Of a stretch of DNA of 64,000 bases, positions 1,937 to 40,611 are shown in pieces. The DNA is from Bacteroidota bacterium. GTDB lineage: Bacteria > Bacteroidota > Ignavibacteria > Ignavibacteriales > Melioribacteraceae. The DNA lies in contig JAHISP010000084.1 in NCBI GenBank assembly GCA_018818165.1, positions 310,001-374,000 of the forward strand, written 5' to 3'. The notes beneath the pieces are model-generated. The model ran no database searches. It was not told the origin of the DNA and saw only the letters and a list, made by a program, of their open reading frames with translations. How positions within the stretch are numbered: the stretch's first letter is position 1; every line of letters starts with the position of its first letter. The translations under genes and the position numbers were made by a program.

Positions 1937-3946
1937 ATGTTTCTCAAAGGTGTTTTTAGGCTCAATAAAACTTTCATAATTCTACTACTTATCTCGTCCT
2001 CAATTTTTGCAAATGGAATTTTAAGAACTAGTGGCAAAAAAATTGTTGATGCAGACGGAACAGAAGTGCTTTTTAAGGGAATTGGTTTAGGCGGCTGGCT
2101 TGTTCCAGAAGGTTATATGTTCAATATGTCAGGCTTCGCAAATTCACCAACTGAAATCAAGAACAAAATTATTGGTGTTGTTGGCGAAGCAAACGCCGAA
2201 ATAATTTATAACAATTTTAGAAAAAACTTTGTTACAGAAGCTGATATCGATTCCCTTGCTAACTGGGGTTTTAACAATATCAGACTTCCAATGCATTACG
2301 AATTATTAACTCCTAGAAATGAACCTTATGTTTATACAGAAAGTGGATTTGCTTTAATTGACAGCTTAATTACTTGGTGTAAAAAAAGAGATATGTATTT
2401 AATTCTCGATCTACACGCAGCGCCTGGCGGACAAAGCGCCGAACCAATTAGCGATTACGATTCCAGATATCCTTCACTTTGGGAAAGCGAAGAAAACAAA
2501 GCACGCACTATTGATCTTTGGCGCGAAATCGCTTCTCGTTATGTTAACGAAGAAACAATTGCTGGTTATGATTTGCTGAACGAACCTGCTTGGGATCTTG
2601 GTTCTATGAATTTTGATTTACGAGCTTTATATATGGATATAACAAGCGCAATTAGAGCCGTGGATACTAACCACATTGTTTATATTGAAGGCAATTGGTT
2701 TGCAACAACCTTTACTGGCTTAACTCCAACTTGGGATGATAATATGGTTTACTCGTTTCATAAATATTGGAGTGATGTAACCACTAGTTCAATCCAAAGT
2801 TATTTAACAATTCGTAATAATTATAACGTACCACTTTGGATGAGTGAATCTGGCGAAAATTCAAATTCGTGGTTTAGAGATTTTGTAAAACTTTTGGATG
2901 ATAATGAGATTGGCTGGTCCTGGTGGACAATTAAGAAATTGGACGCTATTTCTCCTTTAGCATCTGTAAAAATAGCTCCTCAGTTTCAAACATTATTAAA
3001 TTATTGGAATGGAAATGGTGCTAAACCAAGTGTTGATTATGCAATGGCAGCATTGACTTTACAAATTGAAAATTTTAAAATTAAAAACTACGACAAAAAA
3101 GAAGATGTAATTGATGCACTCATGCGCCGACCATTTAATAATGATGTTTATCCATTTAAAGAAAATAAAATTCCTGGAACAATTTATGGCGTTGATTTCG
3201 ATTATGGAAATCTTGGAACTGCATATTATGATGTTTCCCCCAGTAATACTGGTGATGGTGTTTACAACAATGGTTGGGTTTACAGAAACGATGGCGTAGA
3301 TATTGAAAAATGCAGCGATGCAATTACAAACGGCTATAACATTGGTTGGATTGAAACTGGCGAATGGCTAAAATATACTGTTGATGTTACTCAAGCAGGC
3401 ACTTATAAAATTAAGTTTAGAATTGCTGCTTCAACTTCTGCAGGAAAAATACAATTACTTTTAGACAACACTTATTTAACTAGTTTAATTGATGTTCCGG
3501 CTTCAGGGGGTTGGCAAAATTGGCAAACTCTGCAAGTTGATAATCTTCAAATTACAGAAGGTAAACACGAATTAGTTGTTCGATTTTATTTTGGAGGATT
3601 TAACTTCAATTTAATGGATTTTGAACTAACTGCTGTTGGAGTTGATGATAATAGTGCCACTCCTTTAAATTTTGAAATGGAGCAAAATTATCCAAATCCT
3701 TTCAATCCTAACACAATAATTAAATATGGTATTCCAGAAAAAAGCATTATTAAAGTTGAAGTATTTAATGTGCTTGGTCAAAGTGTTAATGTTTTAGTAA
3801 ACGAAGAAAAGCTCTCTGGATTTTATGAAACTACTTGGAATGCAACAAAGTTGCCAAGTGGAATGTATTTTATTAGTATTAATGCAAAAGGTTCAAATTC
3901 AGAAAACAATTTTACAAAAGTTATTAAAGCCGTTCTTGTTAAATAA
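1937..3946 (+). CDS. Secreted GH5 glycoside hydrolase with CBM6 and T9SS tail
   Basis: A 669-residue modular secreted enzyme. Residues 1-25 are a signal peptide (LLLISSSIFA). Residues ~28-390 are a GH5 (cellulase-fold) catalytic domain: GIGLGGWLVPEGY near the start, acid/base E216 in LLNEP, and probable nucleophile E304 in LWMSESGE. Residues ~411-568 are a CBM6-like sugar-binding module (GVDFDYGNLGTAYYD, IGWIETGEWLKYTVDV). From ~583 a T9SS type A sorting domain begins with NYPNPFNPNT and ends in a short basic tail. It probably cleaves a beta-glucan or related polysaccharide outside the cell or on its surface; the exact substrate is not shown. The ATG at 1937 has a weak ribosome site, and the open signal peptide supports it. 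Confidence 0.92.
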   Translation: MFLKGVFRLNKTFIILLLISSSIFANGILRTSGKKIVDADGTEVLFKGIGLGGWLVPEGYMFNMSGFANSPTEIKNKIIGVVGEANAEIIYNNFRKNFVTEADIDSLANWGFNNIRLPMHYELLTPRNEPYVYTESGFALIDSLITWCKKRDMYLILDLHAAPGGQSAEPISDYDSRYPSLWESEENKARTIDLWREIASRYVNEETIAGYDLLNEPAWDLGSMNFDLRALYMDITSAIRAVDTNHIVYIEGNWFATTFTGLTPTWDDNMVYSFHKYWSDVTTSSIQSYLTIRNNYNVPLWMSESGENSNSWFRDFVKLLDDNEIGWSWWTIKKLDAISPLASVKIAPQFQTLLNYWNGNGAKPSVDYAMAALTLQIENFKIKNYDKKEDVIDALMRRPFNNDVYPFKENKIPGTIYGVDFDYGNLGTAYYDVSPSNTGDGVYNNGWVYRNDGVDIEKCSDAITNGYNIGWIETGEWLKYTVDVTQAGTYKIKFRIAASTSAGKIQLLLDNTYLTSLIDVPASGGWQNWQTLQVDNLQITEGKHELVVRFYFGGFNFNLMDFELTAVGVDDNSATPLNFEMEQNYPNPFNPNTIIKYGIPEKSIIKVEVFNVLGQSVNVLVNEEKLSGFYETTWNATKLPSGMYFISINAKGSNSENNFTKVIKAVLVK

Positions 3947-36174: not shown

Positions 36175-38496
36175 TTATTTTAATAAAATCATTTTTTTGC
36201 TTTCCACAAAAGAGCCATATTGTAATTTGTAAAAATAAATTCCAGAGGTTAAACCATTTCCATCAAAGTTAACTTCGTAATTACCAGCTTTTTGTTGTTT
36301 GTTGATAAGCGTTGCAATTTCACGTCCGAGAATGTCGTAGACTTTTAATTGCACTTGTTGCACAGAATAATATTCTGTGCTACGAGGTATTGAGTATTTA
36401 ATTGTTGTGCTTGGGTTAAAAGGATTTGGATAATTTTGTGAAAGTGAAAATTTAATATTGTTCAAATCTCCATCATCTACATCACCTTCAAGTGGAAGAT
36501 TACGTATTGCTTGCATTTGTGAAGAAACATCACTTCTGCCAAACCAATAATAATATGGCGAAGAATTAATTGATATTGGATCATAAGCCATAAAAACTGT
36601 CATATGGTTTTGACCGATATTTCTACTTACACCAACATTTACTTCTCTAACATTAGGAGCACCCATAATTCTACTTGTTTCAGCTTTCATAAATACTTCT
36701 AAAGTTGGGTCATCTTCTCTAACTTCAAATCCATCGTGCCAATTATTGAGACCAATTTCATAAATCGGGTCATAGAGAACAGAATCTATTTTTGTTGAAT
36801 CAACAGTATTAAATTGGGTTACTAAATCAAACATTGGACCACCTAAATCTGTTCCCTCTTGTGGCATAAATATGGATGGCAATTCTTGTCCAGATGTTCC
36901 ATCATAACTCACATCATTATATGGAAGAGTTAGACCAAGAATATCGTATGCAAAATCTCCAGGATTAAAACCTACATCTGCAAAACCACCAAATTTGCCA
37001 AGCCATTCTTGTCCCCAAAGCATATAAACTCTATAATAGCTACTTGCAAACCAATCTCTTATAACTTCTCGGTTATCATCATTTGGCCCTGCAGTACAAT
37101 TTTCAACGATAAATTTATAGTTATCAACAAGCTCTTTAGTAAGTGGACCGTATGCCCACACATCCATATCTTGTCTGTAATCAAAATAGCTTGGTCCAAA
37201 ATAATAGCTTTGTGGATATTCTATTCCTTCAGGTGCATCCATGCCATTAAGAACTAATAAGGATTTTCGTTCAGGGCAAAAGAACATAAATTTATCACTT
37301 CTAGACTCTGATTTATTTCCATTTATATCTTTTGCTTCAATCCAATATTCAATTTCGGAACAAGCGAAATGAGGGATGTAACCTTCGTAATCATCTCCAC
37401 CAATGTTCACCATTGCAACAGATTGTGTATCACTATCGCTTTCAATATATTTTAAGTTGACTTCTGAAACTCCAACCAAACCACCAGATGGATTTGTATC
37501 AATAACTGTTGCTAATACTTGACGTGGATCTGTTATGATTGATGTAGTAACTTGAGTAAGAAATGTAATTGTTGGAGGCAAATCACCGGTTATATCAACA
37601 GCTAATGCAAAATCCCAAGTGTAATTTCTAACCCACCAGCCCTGATCAACATCAGCACTACTTCTACCATTTTCATAAAACTTCCAACCTGGATAACCGA
37701 TTGTTTGATCGGACCAGAAACCAATTCTATCAGCATCCAAATTTATTCCATCGTGTGTGGCAACAACAGCAAAAATATCTCCTTTTGATACAGATGGTTC
37801 AAAACCTAAATCTTCAGTTGCAACCCATTGATAAATTGGATCAGTAAAAGGTGAAGCAACAGGAGTAATTGGCCAACCATAACCAGCATCTGACCAAAAG
37901 TCATATTCAAAAGTATTTGCGGAAGGGTCGGCGTTATCTGTCCAAGGTGGTAAAGGATTATTTTCATCAATAGAAACCCAATCACCAGTTGCCGTTTCTC
38001 CGAAAGGGTCAATATTATTCATTCCATCACCACTTGATGGGAAGTAGCCAATCTGTTTATCACCAATAAAATTTCTCAATTGCTCCTTTGTCCAATTTAA
38101 GCGAATAAGTCGCAAAGAGATTGTCGCGTTTTCTGCTCCAGTATCATCGGAACAGGTAAACCCAATTCCTTTAATTGTCATATCTGCTGGAGCTTCGAAC
38201 CACATAAGCATTACATCTTGACCGAAAAAGCCAAAATTAGTATTCCATGTTCCCCCAAAACTTCTGTAACTAATTGTATCAACAAAACCAGCTATGTTTG
38301 AAGGTTTACTTGCGAATTGGTTGTTAAAGACTTTACCATCACTTCTTTTAATTTTGGATTCAGTTATAGCTTCGCGTAAGTCTTTTTTGTGATTCAGTTT
38401 AATTTGTTCACCGTTGGTGCGCAAAATCATTCTTTCTTGCGCGAATAATAATGATGAAAGGAATAGGACGAATAATGTTAATGTAATGTTTTTCAT
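36175..38496 (-). CDS. T9SS-exported multidomain protein of unknown function
   Basis: A 773-residue secreted protein. A signal peptide (LFVLFLSSLLFAQ) is followed by a ~300-residue beta-rich region with many W and Y (FDYWS..., WVRNYTWDFALAVD), an Ig-like stretch (EVNLKYIESDSDTQSVAMV) and a region that may form an alpha/beta fold (SLLVLNGMDAPEGIEYPQSY). The C-terminal ~85 residues are a T9SS type A sorting domain (LSQNYPNPFNPSTTIKYSI... ending KKMILLK). I see no catalytic motif that I recognise. It lies 135 bp after the M1 peptidase gene on the same strand, and the two share an almost identical 3' end. Confidence 0.85.
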   Translation of the reverse strand: MKNITLTLFVLFLSSLLFAQERMILRTNGEQIKLNHKKDLREAITESKIKRSDGKVFNNQFASKPSNIAGFVDTISYRSFGGTWNTNFGFFGQDVMLMWFEAPADMTIKGIGFTCSDDTGAENATISLRLIRLNWTKEQLRNFIGDKQIGYFPSSGDGMNNIDPFGETATGDWVSIDENNPLPPWTDNADPSANTFEYDFWSDAGYGWPITPVASPFTDPIYQWVATEDLGFEPSVSKGDIFAVVATHDGINLDADRIGFWSDQTIGYPGWKFYENGRSSADVDQGWWVRNYTWDFALAVDITGDLPPTITFLTQVTTSIITDPRQVLATVIDTNPSGGLVGVSEVNLKYIESDSDTQSVAMVNIGGDDYEGYIPHFACSEIEYWIEAKDINGNKSESRSDKFMFFCPERKSLLVLNGMDAPEGIEYPQSYYFGPSYFDYRQDMDVWAYGPLTKELVDNYKFIVENCTAGPNDDNREVIRDWFASSYYRVYMLWGQEWLGKFGGFADVGFNPGDFAYDILGLTLPYNDVSYDGTSGQELPSIFMPQEGTDLGGPMFDLVTQFNTVDSTKIDSVLYDPIYEIGLNNWHDGFEVREDDPTLEVFMKAETSRIMGAPNVREVNVGVSRNIGQNHMTVFMAYDPISINSSPYYYWFGRSDVSSQMQAIRNLPLEGDVDDGDLNNIKFSLSQNYPNPFNPSTTIKYSIPRSTEYYSVQQVQLKVYDILGREIATLINKQQKAGNYEVNFDGNGLTSGIYFYKLQYGSFVESKKMILLK
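36360..36380. repeat. In-frame palindrome in T9SS domain, copy A
   Basis: A perfect 21-bp palindrome (10-bp arms GCACAGAATA / TATTCTGTGC around one base) lies inside the coding sequence and encodes STEYYSV plus part of a Q. It falls between the SIP and VQLKVYD strands of the sorting domain. The GH5 sorting domain at the other end of the window lacks about six residues here. Confidence 0.8.
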
Positions 38497-38554
38497 AGCC
38501 TTCTACCCTGAATGTTGTTATGTAACTTACAAAATAATTCTTTATTATTCAAAA

Positions 38555-38578
38555 AAAAGGATGCGATTGCATCCTTTT
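38555..38578 (-). terminator. Intrinsic terminator after the M1 peptidase gene
   Basis: A perfect 10-bp stem (AAAAGGATGC / GCATCCTTTT) with a GATT loop. Read on the minus strand it ends in TTTTTTTT, about 55 bp after the peptidase stop and before the next gene. Confidence 0.88.
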
Positions 38579-38631
38579 CTAATTGAATATGTCATTAAAA
38601 AGCATTTCTAAGGATGCTCTTTTAAACAAAA

Positions 38632-40611
38632 CTATTTTAATAACATCATTTTGCGGCTTTCCACAAAATTGCCACTTTGTAATTTGTAATAATAAATTCC
38701 AGATGTTAATTCCCCTCCATCAAACTGAACTTCGTAATTACCAGCTTTTTGTTCTTTGTTTACAAGCGTTGCAATTTCACGTCCTAGAGCGTCGTAGACT
38801 TTTAATTGCACTTGTTGCACAGAATAATATTCTGTGCTACGAGGTATTGAATATTTAATTGTTGTGCTTGGGTTAAATGGATTTGGATAATTTTGTTCCA
38901 AACTGAAATTGTAAATGTTTAAGTCTGCATTATCAACTTCTGTAATTTCATAAATATGCTTCATAATTTTATTATCTGGGTCAAAACTGAATGAGTGAGG
39001 CATACTATTAAATTTGAAGTAAAAATACTCTTCTTGAGCATTATTAAAAACTGTAATTGTAGTATCGCCATCAAAAGTGTTAAAATACAATTCAGTTGGC
39101 ATACTAAAGAATTTTGGAGATGAATTTACATCTTGTTTAATTCTAACTTTTACATCGTAAGTCCCATCACCAGCATCAGTGTAATTCCAACCAATTATAT
39201 ATTTAGGATAGTTTGCACCATAAATCCATTCAGAGAAAAAGTAATTTAAATCCAACCCAGATATTTCTTCTGCAACTCTTTGGAAATCTTCAGTAACAGC
39301 AACTCCATAAGCGAGAGTTGTATCAGCTGCATAAGTTCGCATAATGTTATAAAAAGTTTCAGTTCCAACAATACCACGTAACATGTGTAAAACAACAGCA
39401 CCTTTTGCATAGCTTCGGGAACTGCTAAAAATTTGTCCAACAGAGCTAATATCTTGCACCCAAATTGAACCAGAAGCATTTTTAGCAGCTGATATTTCAC
39501 CAGCCATATTACTCTGATATCTATCATATCCATAAACAGATTCTAAATAAGCAGATTCAGAATAAGTAGCGAAGCCTTCATTTAACCAAATGTGGTGCCA
39601 ATCTTTGCAAGTAATTTTATCACCAAACCATTGATGAGCAAGTTCGTGTGCAACTATTGTCTCACCAAAATTGCCCATTGAAGTACAAGTTTGATGCTCC
39701 ATTCCACCGCCCCACCCAAATTCTGCATGACCATATTTTTCTTTAAGGAATGGATATGGTCCATAAAGTTCTGTAAAAACTTCAAGCATATCAACAGTTT
39801 TATCTAAATCGTTTTTTCGTGTAGAGTTTAATCTTTCTGGATAGTTATAATGAGTTACTAACATTGTATCCGTGCCAGTAATAAACTCATTTGTATAAAG
39901 TTCATAATTTGTAATTGCAAGCGAAATTAAATATTGTGCAATAGGATATTGGCTATGCCATTTGTAGGTATGTGTTGTTCCATTATCAACAATTGCTTCC
40001 AAAGAACCATTTGAAATTGGGATTAATGATTTATCAACCGTTATCCAAATATCAGCCGAGTCGGCTTTATCTGCTGGAGTATCTTTGCAAGGCCACCAAT
40101 CGCTTGCGCCATATGGTTCACTTAAAGTCCAAATTGCTGGATAACCATTGTGTGATGAAAACTCAAAACTACCAAAACCTGAACTTCCTGGAGTACCACT
40201 GTAATTAAGAACTAATTTAAACTCCTCGCCAATATTATATGACTTATAAAGAGTAATGTTAATAATATTATTTTCGTGAGTAAATGTTACACTTTTTGCA
40301 TTGTGTGTTATGGAATGAACTGTAAGAGCATTTTGTAAATCGAGGTAAATTGATTTTAAACTATCCTTCAAACTTTTAGCCGTGATTGTAATATCCCCAC
40401 TAATTTTTTTGCTATCATAATCAAGAGCAACATCAAGTTTGTAATAAGTAACATCTATTGTTTCATCACTTGGATATTGCACAGCATTCAATTTGTTGAG
40501 ATTTGTAAAATGTGCAATTTTTGAATCTGAACAGATATTTGATTTTTGCTGACTAAAATTAATTCCAACAAAAAGAAGTAATAATAGTGGAATAGATAAC
40601 AATTTTTTCAT
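38632..40611 (-). CDS. M1-family zinc aminopeptidase with T9SS tail
   Basis: A 659-residue secreted peptidase. A signal peptide is at 1-20, the M1 N-terminal beta domain at ~45-240, and the catalytic domain contains GGGMEHQ (301-307, the GAMEN-type exopeptidase loop), HELAHQW with zinc ligands H322 and H326, catalytic E323, and the third ligand E345 in LNEGFATYSE. A beta/helical part follows, then a T9SS sorting domain from about residue 570 (LEQNYPNPFNPSTTIKYSI, ending RKMMLLK). It should remove N-terminal residues from peptides outside the cell. The C-terminal helical domain of larger M1 enzymes seems absent or short. A terminator follows. Confidence 0.93.
   Translation of the reverse strand: MKKLLSIPLLLLLFVGINFSQQKSNICSDSKIAHFTNLNKLNAVQYPSDETIDVTYYKLDVALDYDSKKISGDITITAKSLKDSLKSIYLDLQNALTVHSITHNAKSVTFTHENNIINITLYKSYNIGEEFKLVLNYSGTPGSSGFGSFEFSSHNGYPAIWTLSEPYGASDWWPCKDTPADKADSADIWITVDKSLIPISNGSLEAIVDNGTTHTYKWHSQYPIAQYLISLAITNYELYTNEFITGTDTMLVTHYNYPERLNSTRKNDLDKTVDMLEVFTELYGPYPFLKEKYGHAEFGWGGGMEHQTCTSMGNFGETIVAHELAHQWFGDKITCKDWHHIWLNEGFATYSESAYLESVYGYDRYQSNMAGEISAAKNASGSIWVQDISSVGQIFSSSRSYAKGAVVLHMLRGIVGTETFYNIMRTYAADTTLAYGVAVTEDFQRVAEEISGLDLNYFFSEWIYGANYPKYIIGWNYTDAGDGTYDVKVRIKQDVNSSPKFFSMPTELYFNTFDGDTTITVFNNAQEEYFYFKFNSMPHSFSFDPDNKIMKHIYEITEVDNADLNIYNFSLEQNYPNPFNPSTTIKYSIPRSTEYYSVQQVQLKVYDALGREIATLVNKEQKAGNYEVQFDGGELTSGIYYYKLQSGNFVESRKMMLLK
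38817..38837. repeat. In-frame palindrome in T9SS domain, copy B
   Basis: The same 21-bp palindrome as at 36360, identical in sequence and reading frame, inside the sorting domain of the M1 peptidase. The flanking ~100 bp are nearly identical too. Confidence 0.8.

Follow-up and report, generated by a model that had tools for sequence, protein, structure and literature searches.

In the 64,000-nucleotide stretch of DNA analysed here (the window), two neighbouring genes on the minus strand encode proteins whose T9SS type A sorting domains (CTDs) contain the same extra peptide, STEYYSV. How did this segment, which is encoded by a DNA palindrome, come to occupy the same position in both genes, and what kind of element is it?

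One palindrome in two sorting domains

The features of the window that bear on this question are as follows; REP is the repeat class to which we assign the palindrome below.

36175..38496, minus strand: 773-aa protein in which only the sorting domain scores above cut-off in Pfam and NCBIfam (profile search)
36187..36432, minus strand: T9SS type A sorting domain (PF18962 / TIGR04183) of the protein at 36175-38496 (profile search)
36360..36380, minus strand: REP core, 21-bp palindrome, in frame in the CTD loop as STEYYSV (palindrome search and shuffles; GTAG foot on the coding strand)
38632..40611, minus strand: 659-aa M1-family peptidase with a sorting domain (profile search)
38647..38889, minus strand: T9SS type A sorting domain of the protein at 38632-40611 (profile search)
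38817..38837, minus strand: REP core, 21-bp palindrome, an element copied together with the CTD (palindrome search and shuffles; CTD comparison)
3689..3901, plus strand: T9SS sorting domain with a short loop and no palindrome, used for comparison (motif spacing)

Both palindrome-bearing domains exceed the PF18962 and TIGR04183 cut-offs and lie at the C-terminus of their proteins. The palindrome, GCACAGAATAATATTCTGTGC, is perfect over 21 bp at 36360-36380 and 38817-38837, and these are the only two matches in the window when up to 3 mismatches are allowed. Its arms extend to 16 nt if imperfect extension is counted (88% complementary). When the window was shuffled 100 times with dinucleotides preserved, the palindrome never appeared (0/100), and the DNA fold of the host REP has a z of -6.7. 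The coding (minus) strand reads CGT AGC ACA GAA TAT TAT TCT GTG CAA, or R S T E Y Y S V Q, with the palindrome offset by one base from codon phase and a GTAG foot present in both copies.

The first-pass annotation had described STEYYSV as an extra segment coded by a perfect palindrome in both domains, and had described the domain near 3.7 kb as about six residues shorter and free of the palindrome. All of this holds. The segment is in frame at both sites, and the loop, measured in residues between PNPFN and the V of the VYD/VFN motif, has a length of 29 in both palindrome-bearing domains and 23 in the domain at 3689-3901, whose open reading frame ends at about 3.9 kb.

The proteins at 36175-38496 and 38632-40611 have only their last 102 aa in common (82% identity), and about 115 bases around the palindrome are identical between the two genes. 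Two separate insertions are therefore ruled out: the proteins are otherwise unrelated, and all they have in common is a copied CTD with the REP inside it. Judged by sequence comparison, the pair is one inheritance, in which a whole CTD with its REP was copied between neighbouring genes. The suggestion that the small palindrome is itself the spreading unit is therefore not borne out for this pair, in which the whole CTD spread with the REP inside it, but it fits the repeat family as a whole, which is dispersed. A cluster on contig C31 of the host genome likewise encodes two proteins with unrelated bodies and a nearly identical CTD, there carrying another insert.

A dispersed REP-type repeat and its probable partner gene

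A search of the 4.88-Mb host genome that allowed up to 3 mismatches located the palindrome at 40 places and the GATTA form at 45, giving a union of 52 places; a reversed-pattern control returned 0 places in the same genome. Ten of the 52 places are in frame in a CTD loop, 3 are in frameshifted CTD remnants, 8 are in a second domain and 31 are elsewhere. In other words, 21/52 lie in CTDs, CTD remnants or the second domain and 31/52 lie outside plausible genes: 27 of these 31 fall outside any open frame of 90 codons, and the other 4 are in open frames that look spurious or lie upstream of a gene. Apart from the CTDs and the one second domain, none of the 52 places falls in a plausible protein, as judged from open frames of at least 90 codons in the flanking sequence. 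Two more host CTDs (C22:271800 and C12:16169) hold decayed copies that exceed the mismatch limit of the search.

GTAG is present at the foot in 43/52 places. By location, it is found in 28/31 intergenic copies, 8/8 copies in the second domain and 3/3 in CTD remnants. It is often decayed in intact CTDs, where it is exact in just 4/10 in-frame copies.

The frameshifted CTD remnants that carry the REP (C15:5968, C68:469 and C68:4910) are traces of CTD copies that failed or decayed. The second domain (NNYGFEIER...GFVEGHG) carries the REP in all 8 of the 8 instances found by motif (C15:5208, 7823, 10616 and 19803; C41:1437; C68:3915; C105:7266 and 10529), and several of these lie about 250 bases ahead of a CTD. 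Here the REP is translated in frame as VAQISNLC, a different reading frame from that of the CTD copies. The palindrome thus occurs both between genes and in one other domain, the two kinds of place where the first-pass annotation had advised looking for it.

Among the 24/52 copies that could be aligned, stem position 8 has A/T and T/A forms and is paired in both states. The covariation score of the host family was equalled by 1/500 shuffles; the number of stem pairs altered on both sides is 1, a count equalled by 425/500 shuffles.

The host genome has 9 Y1_Tnp genes. One of them, at C34, has CTD-type REPs on both sides, some as inverted pairs, and its product matches NF047646, the NCBIfam equivalog for REP-associated tyrosine transposase (RAYT), at 87.5 bits against a cut-off of 80. 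Across 7 genomes there are 29 Y1_Tnp hits (9 in the host, 20 in six others), and GTAG palindromes lie on both sides of 7/29, including 6/20 of those outside the host. When six flanked proteins were scanned with NF047646, 4 scored above the cut-off (87.5, 82.2, 87.9 and 86.7) and 2 below it (73.2 and 75.0). The repeat found in the CTDs flanks, with inverted pairs, the RAYT gene of the host (C34) and a putative RAYT gene of G222 (C125). The RAYT-flanking repeats of G294 agree only in part with its CTD inserts, and those of G299 differ from them. G295 has GTAG palindromes in its CTDs, yet none of its 6 hits is a RAYT flanked by them. The remaining Y1_Tnp genes among the 29 were set aside as partners: L049, L053, L389, L391 and L402 have one loose match each and the others have none.

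Because the palindrome falls in the size range of such elements (20-40 bp) and its family is dispersed (52 places), has the GTAG foot (43/52) and lies on both sides of a RAYT gene, we conclude that the host palindrome is a REP-type repeat with a GTAG foot and a stem of 9-10 bp. The host RAYT probably moves this REP. An in vitro assay for such activity is described in PMC8266576 (in the text available).

Other repeats in the same loop

One alternative is that the extra residues are ordinary loop-length variation of the fold and the palindrome a product of chance codon use. We compared 434 CTDs under 66 genome labels, of which 309 have a spacing of 23 and 122 a spacing of at least 25, a set in which at least one of the long loops does not belong to a CTD (DDUU, L261). 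A stem of at least 7 bp is present in 44/122 long loops and in 1/119 control windows of equal length taken further on in the same domains; the 44 loops comprise 38 distinct sequences and include copies by descent. Without G000 and G222, the counts are 23/56 long loops and 0 controls. In a synonymous-codon test, 22/122 long loops and 0/119 controls reached p <=0.01, and 44/122 and 6/119, respectively, reached p <=0.05. These frequencies come from a selective sample: most stretches of G222, G294-G296, G299 and G301 were included because they had long domains or hits to an element, and 80 loci were drawn using a query that itself carries an insert. Bias is smallest for the host genome, with long loops in 43/150 CTDs (150 of 221 candidates scored), a count that is one too low because C54:55428 was misplaced and its spacing given as 17.

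The first-pass annotation had proposed aligning the CTDs of the genome and its relatives, and had named varied, non-palindromic codons in most domains as the result that would speak for an ordinary loop. The alignment, run in part, instead finds the extra segment missing from most domains, although a 7-bp stem is missing in 78/122 long loops. That figure fits ordinary loop variation, as do the different loop lengths of T9SS CTDs in solved structures (PMC11285876, as far as its available text goes). Against this stand the absence of the palindrome from every shuffle, the 52-place family, whose dispersed intergenic copies already contradict chance codon use, and the excess of long loops at p <=0.01 in the synonymous-codon test. 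We regard this explanation as having almost no chance of being correct.

The CTD loop in related bacteria holds other, unrelated repeats. In the host genome, a 75-bp GTCATTGCGAG repeat occurs in 3 CTDs among its 19 places in the genome. Its left end is found at 16 further places, 10 of which belong to a longer repeat of about 145 bp. A CCCCTC-like repeat is found in 2 or 3 host CTDs and at one other place. In G294, the GTAGGGCGACGAG palindrome (the G294 REP) occupies 8 places, namely 6 CTD loops and 2 intergenic sites, and it was not found in 7 other genomes searched. In G299, 4 of the 10 places of the GTCATTCCGAACG repeat are in CTD loops. For these three elements (host GTCATTGCGAG, G294 GTAGGGCGACGAG and G299 GTCATTCCGAACG), copies are therefore present elsewhere in their own genome; most palindromes of other genomes had no convincing copy outside CTDs among the loci searched. 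In single or few cases, CTD loops of G295, G296, G297, JACOUS and JAJYMU carry further GTAG palindromes, while repeat-like inserts of other kinds occur in those of G296, G298, G300 and G301. The remark in the first-pass annotation that related genomes show odd insertions at this spot was sound.

Several inserts deserve separate mention. The host repeat of about 145 bp has MITE-like ends (ATGAGTCTAC...GACTCAT) and contains the GTCATTGCGAG palindrome (L162, L163, L165, L169-L174 and L176); a relative of this palindrome sits in three CTD loops. At locus L369 (G294 C467), four CTDs are packed into 7.7 kb; REP variants occupy three of them, and the fourth has a different palindrome, CTCTCC. In G300, one copy of the GTCATTCCG repeat is located close to the beginning of an open frame of 313 codons that does not encode a CTD. 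Tandem-repeat-like inserts that are not palindromes (GTGAAAAGTGAAATG, GGTCAATAGTCAATGG and TCAGAATTCAGAAC) are present in host CTDs with NNVKSEMSNVKL-type loops and at L229, L452 and L454. The common SEM-type insert (GTGAAAAGTGAAATG...) does not look like a dispersed palindrome: it forms no hairpin (z 0.6), and just 3 of its 17 near copies in 635 kb are outside CTDs. Peptides such as VIPNEVRNL and CHSGEGRNL presumably stem from widespread bacterial repeats.

A single old insertion, inherited in one CTD subfamily, multiplied by duplication and CTD copying and now immobile, would leave the other long loops as unrelated growth. The window pair is such a copy. To follow descent, we built a tree from 191 CTDs of G000 and G222 with the loop removed. 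REP state changes 12 times for 21 tips on this tree, compared with 18-21 times in 100 shuffles. Clustering therefore exceeds chance, and many copies count as one event. An ortholog pair of G000 and G222 (83% identity over 600 aa) also has the REP in both members, decayed in G222. However, the 12 changes for 21 tips speak against one insertion only, and the nearest relatives of some REP-bearing CTDs have no REP or another element. On C9, the nearest relatives of a REP-bearing CTD have no insert. On C12, two CTDs that lie 3 kb apart have near-equal bodies, and one holds the GTCATTGCGAG repeat while the other holds the CCCCTC repeat; near-identical CTDs carry different elements. In other genomes, this loop is occupied by different repeat families, and two of these families also have copies outside the CTDs of their own genome. 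These data indicate that REP-bearing CTDs are inherited in part and scattered in part, and we consider a single old insertion unlikely as the whole explanation.

Is the position set by the protein or by the DNA? In an AlphaFold model, the insert forms a turn between strands 14-21 and 31-38. Mean pLDDT is 87, falling to 70 in residues 21-30 and 66 in the first ten, with 80 to 96 in the other blocks. The best two of the solved structures closest to the model are T9SS CTDs, with E-values of just 0.0025 and 0.003. In proteins that appear intact, this turn accommodates between 2 and about 27 additional residues, whose sequence is arbitrary. Among 16 element types, insertion starts range from -9 to +9 nt relative to the end of the IP codons, and 9/16 start exactly at +3 nt, which pure tolerance does not predict. 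Starts at +3 nt were seen in CTD loops of G294, G295, G296, G297, G300, JACOUS and JAJYMU.

This clustering may hint at a target or geometry preference. It is what site-specific insertion would give if several mobile repeats preferred the DNA sequence that encodes the turn (ATTCC and a few further bases) irrespective of protein tolerance, and the GTCATTCCGAACG repeat does contain ATTCC and overlaps the IP codons. But starts are spread from -9 to +9 between families, and in the host AT[A/T]CC lies within 16 nt before GTAG in 4/4 CTD copies with exact GTAG, in 0/28 intergenic GTAG copies and in 0/8 in the second domain. The lack of GTAG inserts in the phase that gives a TAG stop is uninformative here, since the scans excluded stops. 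Site preference of this kind seems to us quite unlikely. The position is probably set by tolerance of the protein loop and not by choice of a DNA target.

The insert might instead have a selected function, either as an mRNA or DNA hairpin or as a peptide useful to the export tag, for example as a translation pause or a recombination site for CTD exchange. In the G294 REP, 3/13 pairs are altered on both sides with pairing kept, a number equalled by 2/500 shuffles, and two of these three paired changes are among coding copies. Insert-bearing CTDs are also exchanged between genes. Yet the covariation could equally stem from REP variants gained independently or from repair of quasi-palindromes. 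Different families also encode unrelated peptides of different lengths, decayed copies have been retained and most CTDs have no insert. We think selection improbable and the insert probably neutral.

The best account, which we hold to be probably correct, is that a tolerant turn has repeatedly kept mobile repeats and that CTD copying has multiplied them. An ancestral REP copy would have inserted, in frame, where a T9SS type A sorting domain turns from its first long strand to its second, and would have stayed because the turn tolerates extra residues. Its later multiplication may have been twofold: different CTDs gained some copies separately, and whole CTDs were copied with their insert onto unrelated secreted proteins, the latter giving the window pair. 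No insertion event was caught in progress in the genomes compared. The same turn would have gained other, unrelated repeats across related genomes. Our confidence is slightly reduced because only 4/10 in-frame CTD copies keep GTAG and dispersal is established for only part of the other elements. The first-pass proposal that this loop tolerates, and may spread, small palindromic units gains support from the dispersed palindrome and from the other repeats in the same loop.

A bolder, speculative extension, which we think rather doubtful, is that short mobile repeats generally gain access to secreted proteins by docking at the CTD loop and, once shared, serve as homology blocks for export-tag swaps. 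If so, mobile repeats would drive reshuffling of the secretome, with CTDs gaining, exchanging and replacing repeats while export function stays intact.

One protein loop has apparently been filled independently by different lineages with unrelated repeats, so that nature has in effect scanned an export signal by insertion. The invasion of coding DNA by REP-like repeats, and their survival there, can be counted in this system, and repeat-tagged CTDs allow the copying of whole domains between unrelated genes to be traced. Repeat-derived peptides in the secreted proteins of this group should not be taken as protein motifs.

Relation to known systems

The host family is closest to GTAG-type REP/RAYT (TnpA-REP) systems. 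As described in the available text of PMC2817692, these have a GTAG foot, a short stem-loop, intergenic dispersal, inverted pairs and a REP-flanked RAYT gene, as found here. Classical REPs are mainly extragenic, whereas in the host 10/52 copies are in frame in one protein domain and 8/52 in a second.

REPs and Rickettsia palindromic elements (RPEs) within reading frames are already published (PMC3733652 and PMC10969869, in the parts available). The intragenic REPs of Opitutus terrae, Rickettsia conorii and others are also GTAG or CGTC palindromes in frame in real genes (PMC3733652). They differ, in the available part of that account, in that their host proteins are varied, many of them in DNA repair, and their sites mostly differ, with recB of two Xanthomonas as the exception. 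T9SS domains are not named as REP hosts in that part of PMC3733652. In the open-licence literature searched, we found no paper on palindromes inside T9SS domains and no report of one export-signal loop as a recurrent landing site of unrelated repeats.

Small repeats are tied to CTD genes in P. gingivalis as well, where MITEs lie near PorSS CTD genes. The MITE described in PMC4596501 is, according to the text available, always intergenic, whereas the host REP is also found inside the CTD.

The first-pass annotation had likened the palindrome to RPEs. The likeness holds in that RPEs are palindromic repeats in frame whose added peptide is apparently tolerated (PMC10969869, available text), but the closest kind is a GTAG-footed REP with a RAYT. 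RPEs as described there are about 150 bp and lie in unrelated genes; the host element has a 21-bp core and is a GTAG palindrome. An RPE proper was set aside for the host element on length (21 bp) and spread (among proteins, only CTDs and one second domain across 52 places). The available part of PMC3733652 counts RPE-4 and RPE-6 among CGTC repeats and describes some RPE families as shorter than about 150 bp. The CTD loop appears to be a permissive site at which genomic parasites can settle, and unlike the case of RPEs, many unrelated element families occur in the loop of a single domain.
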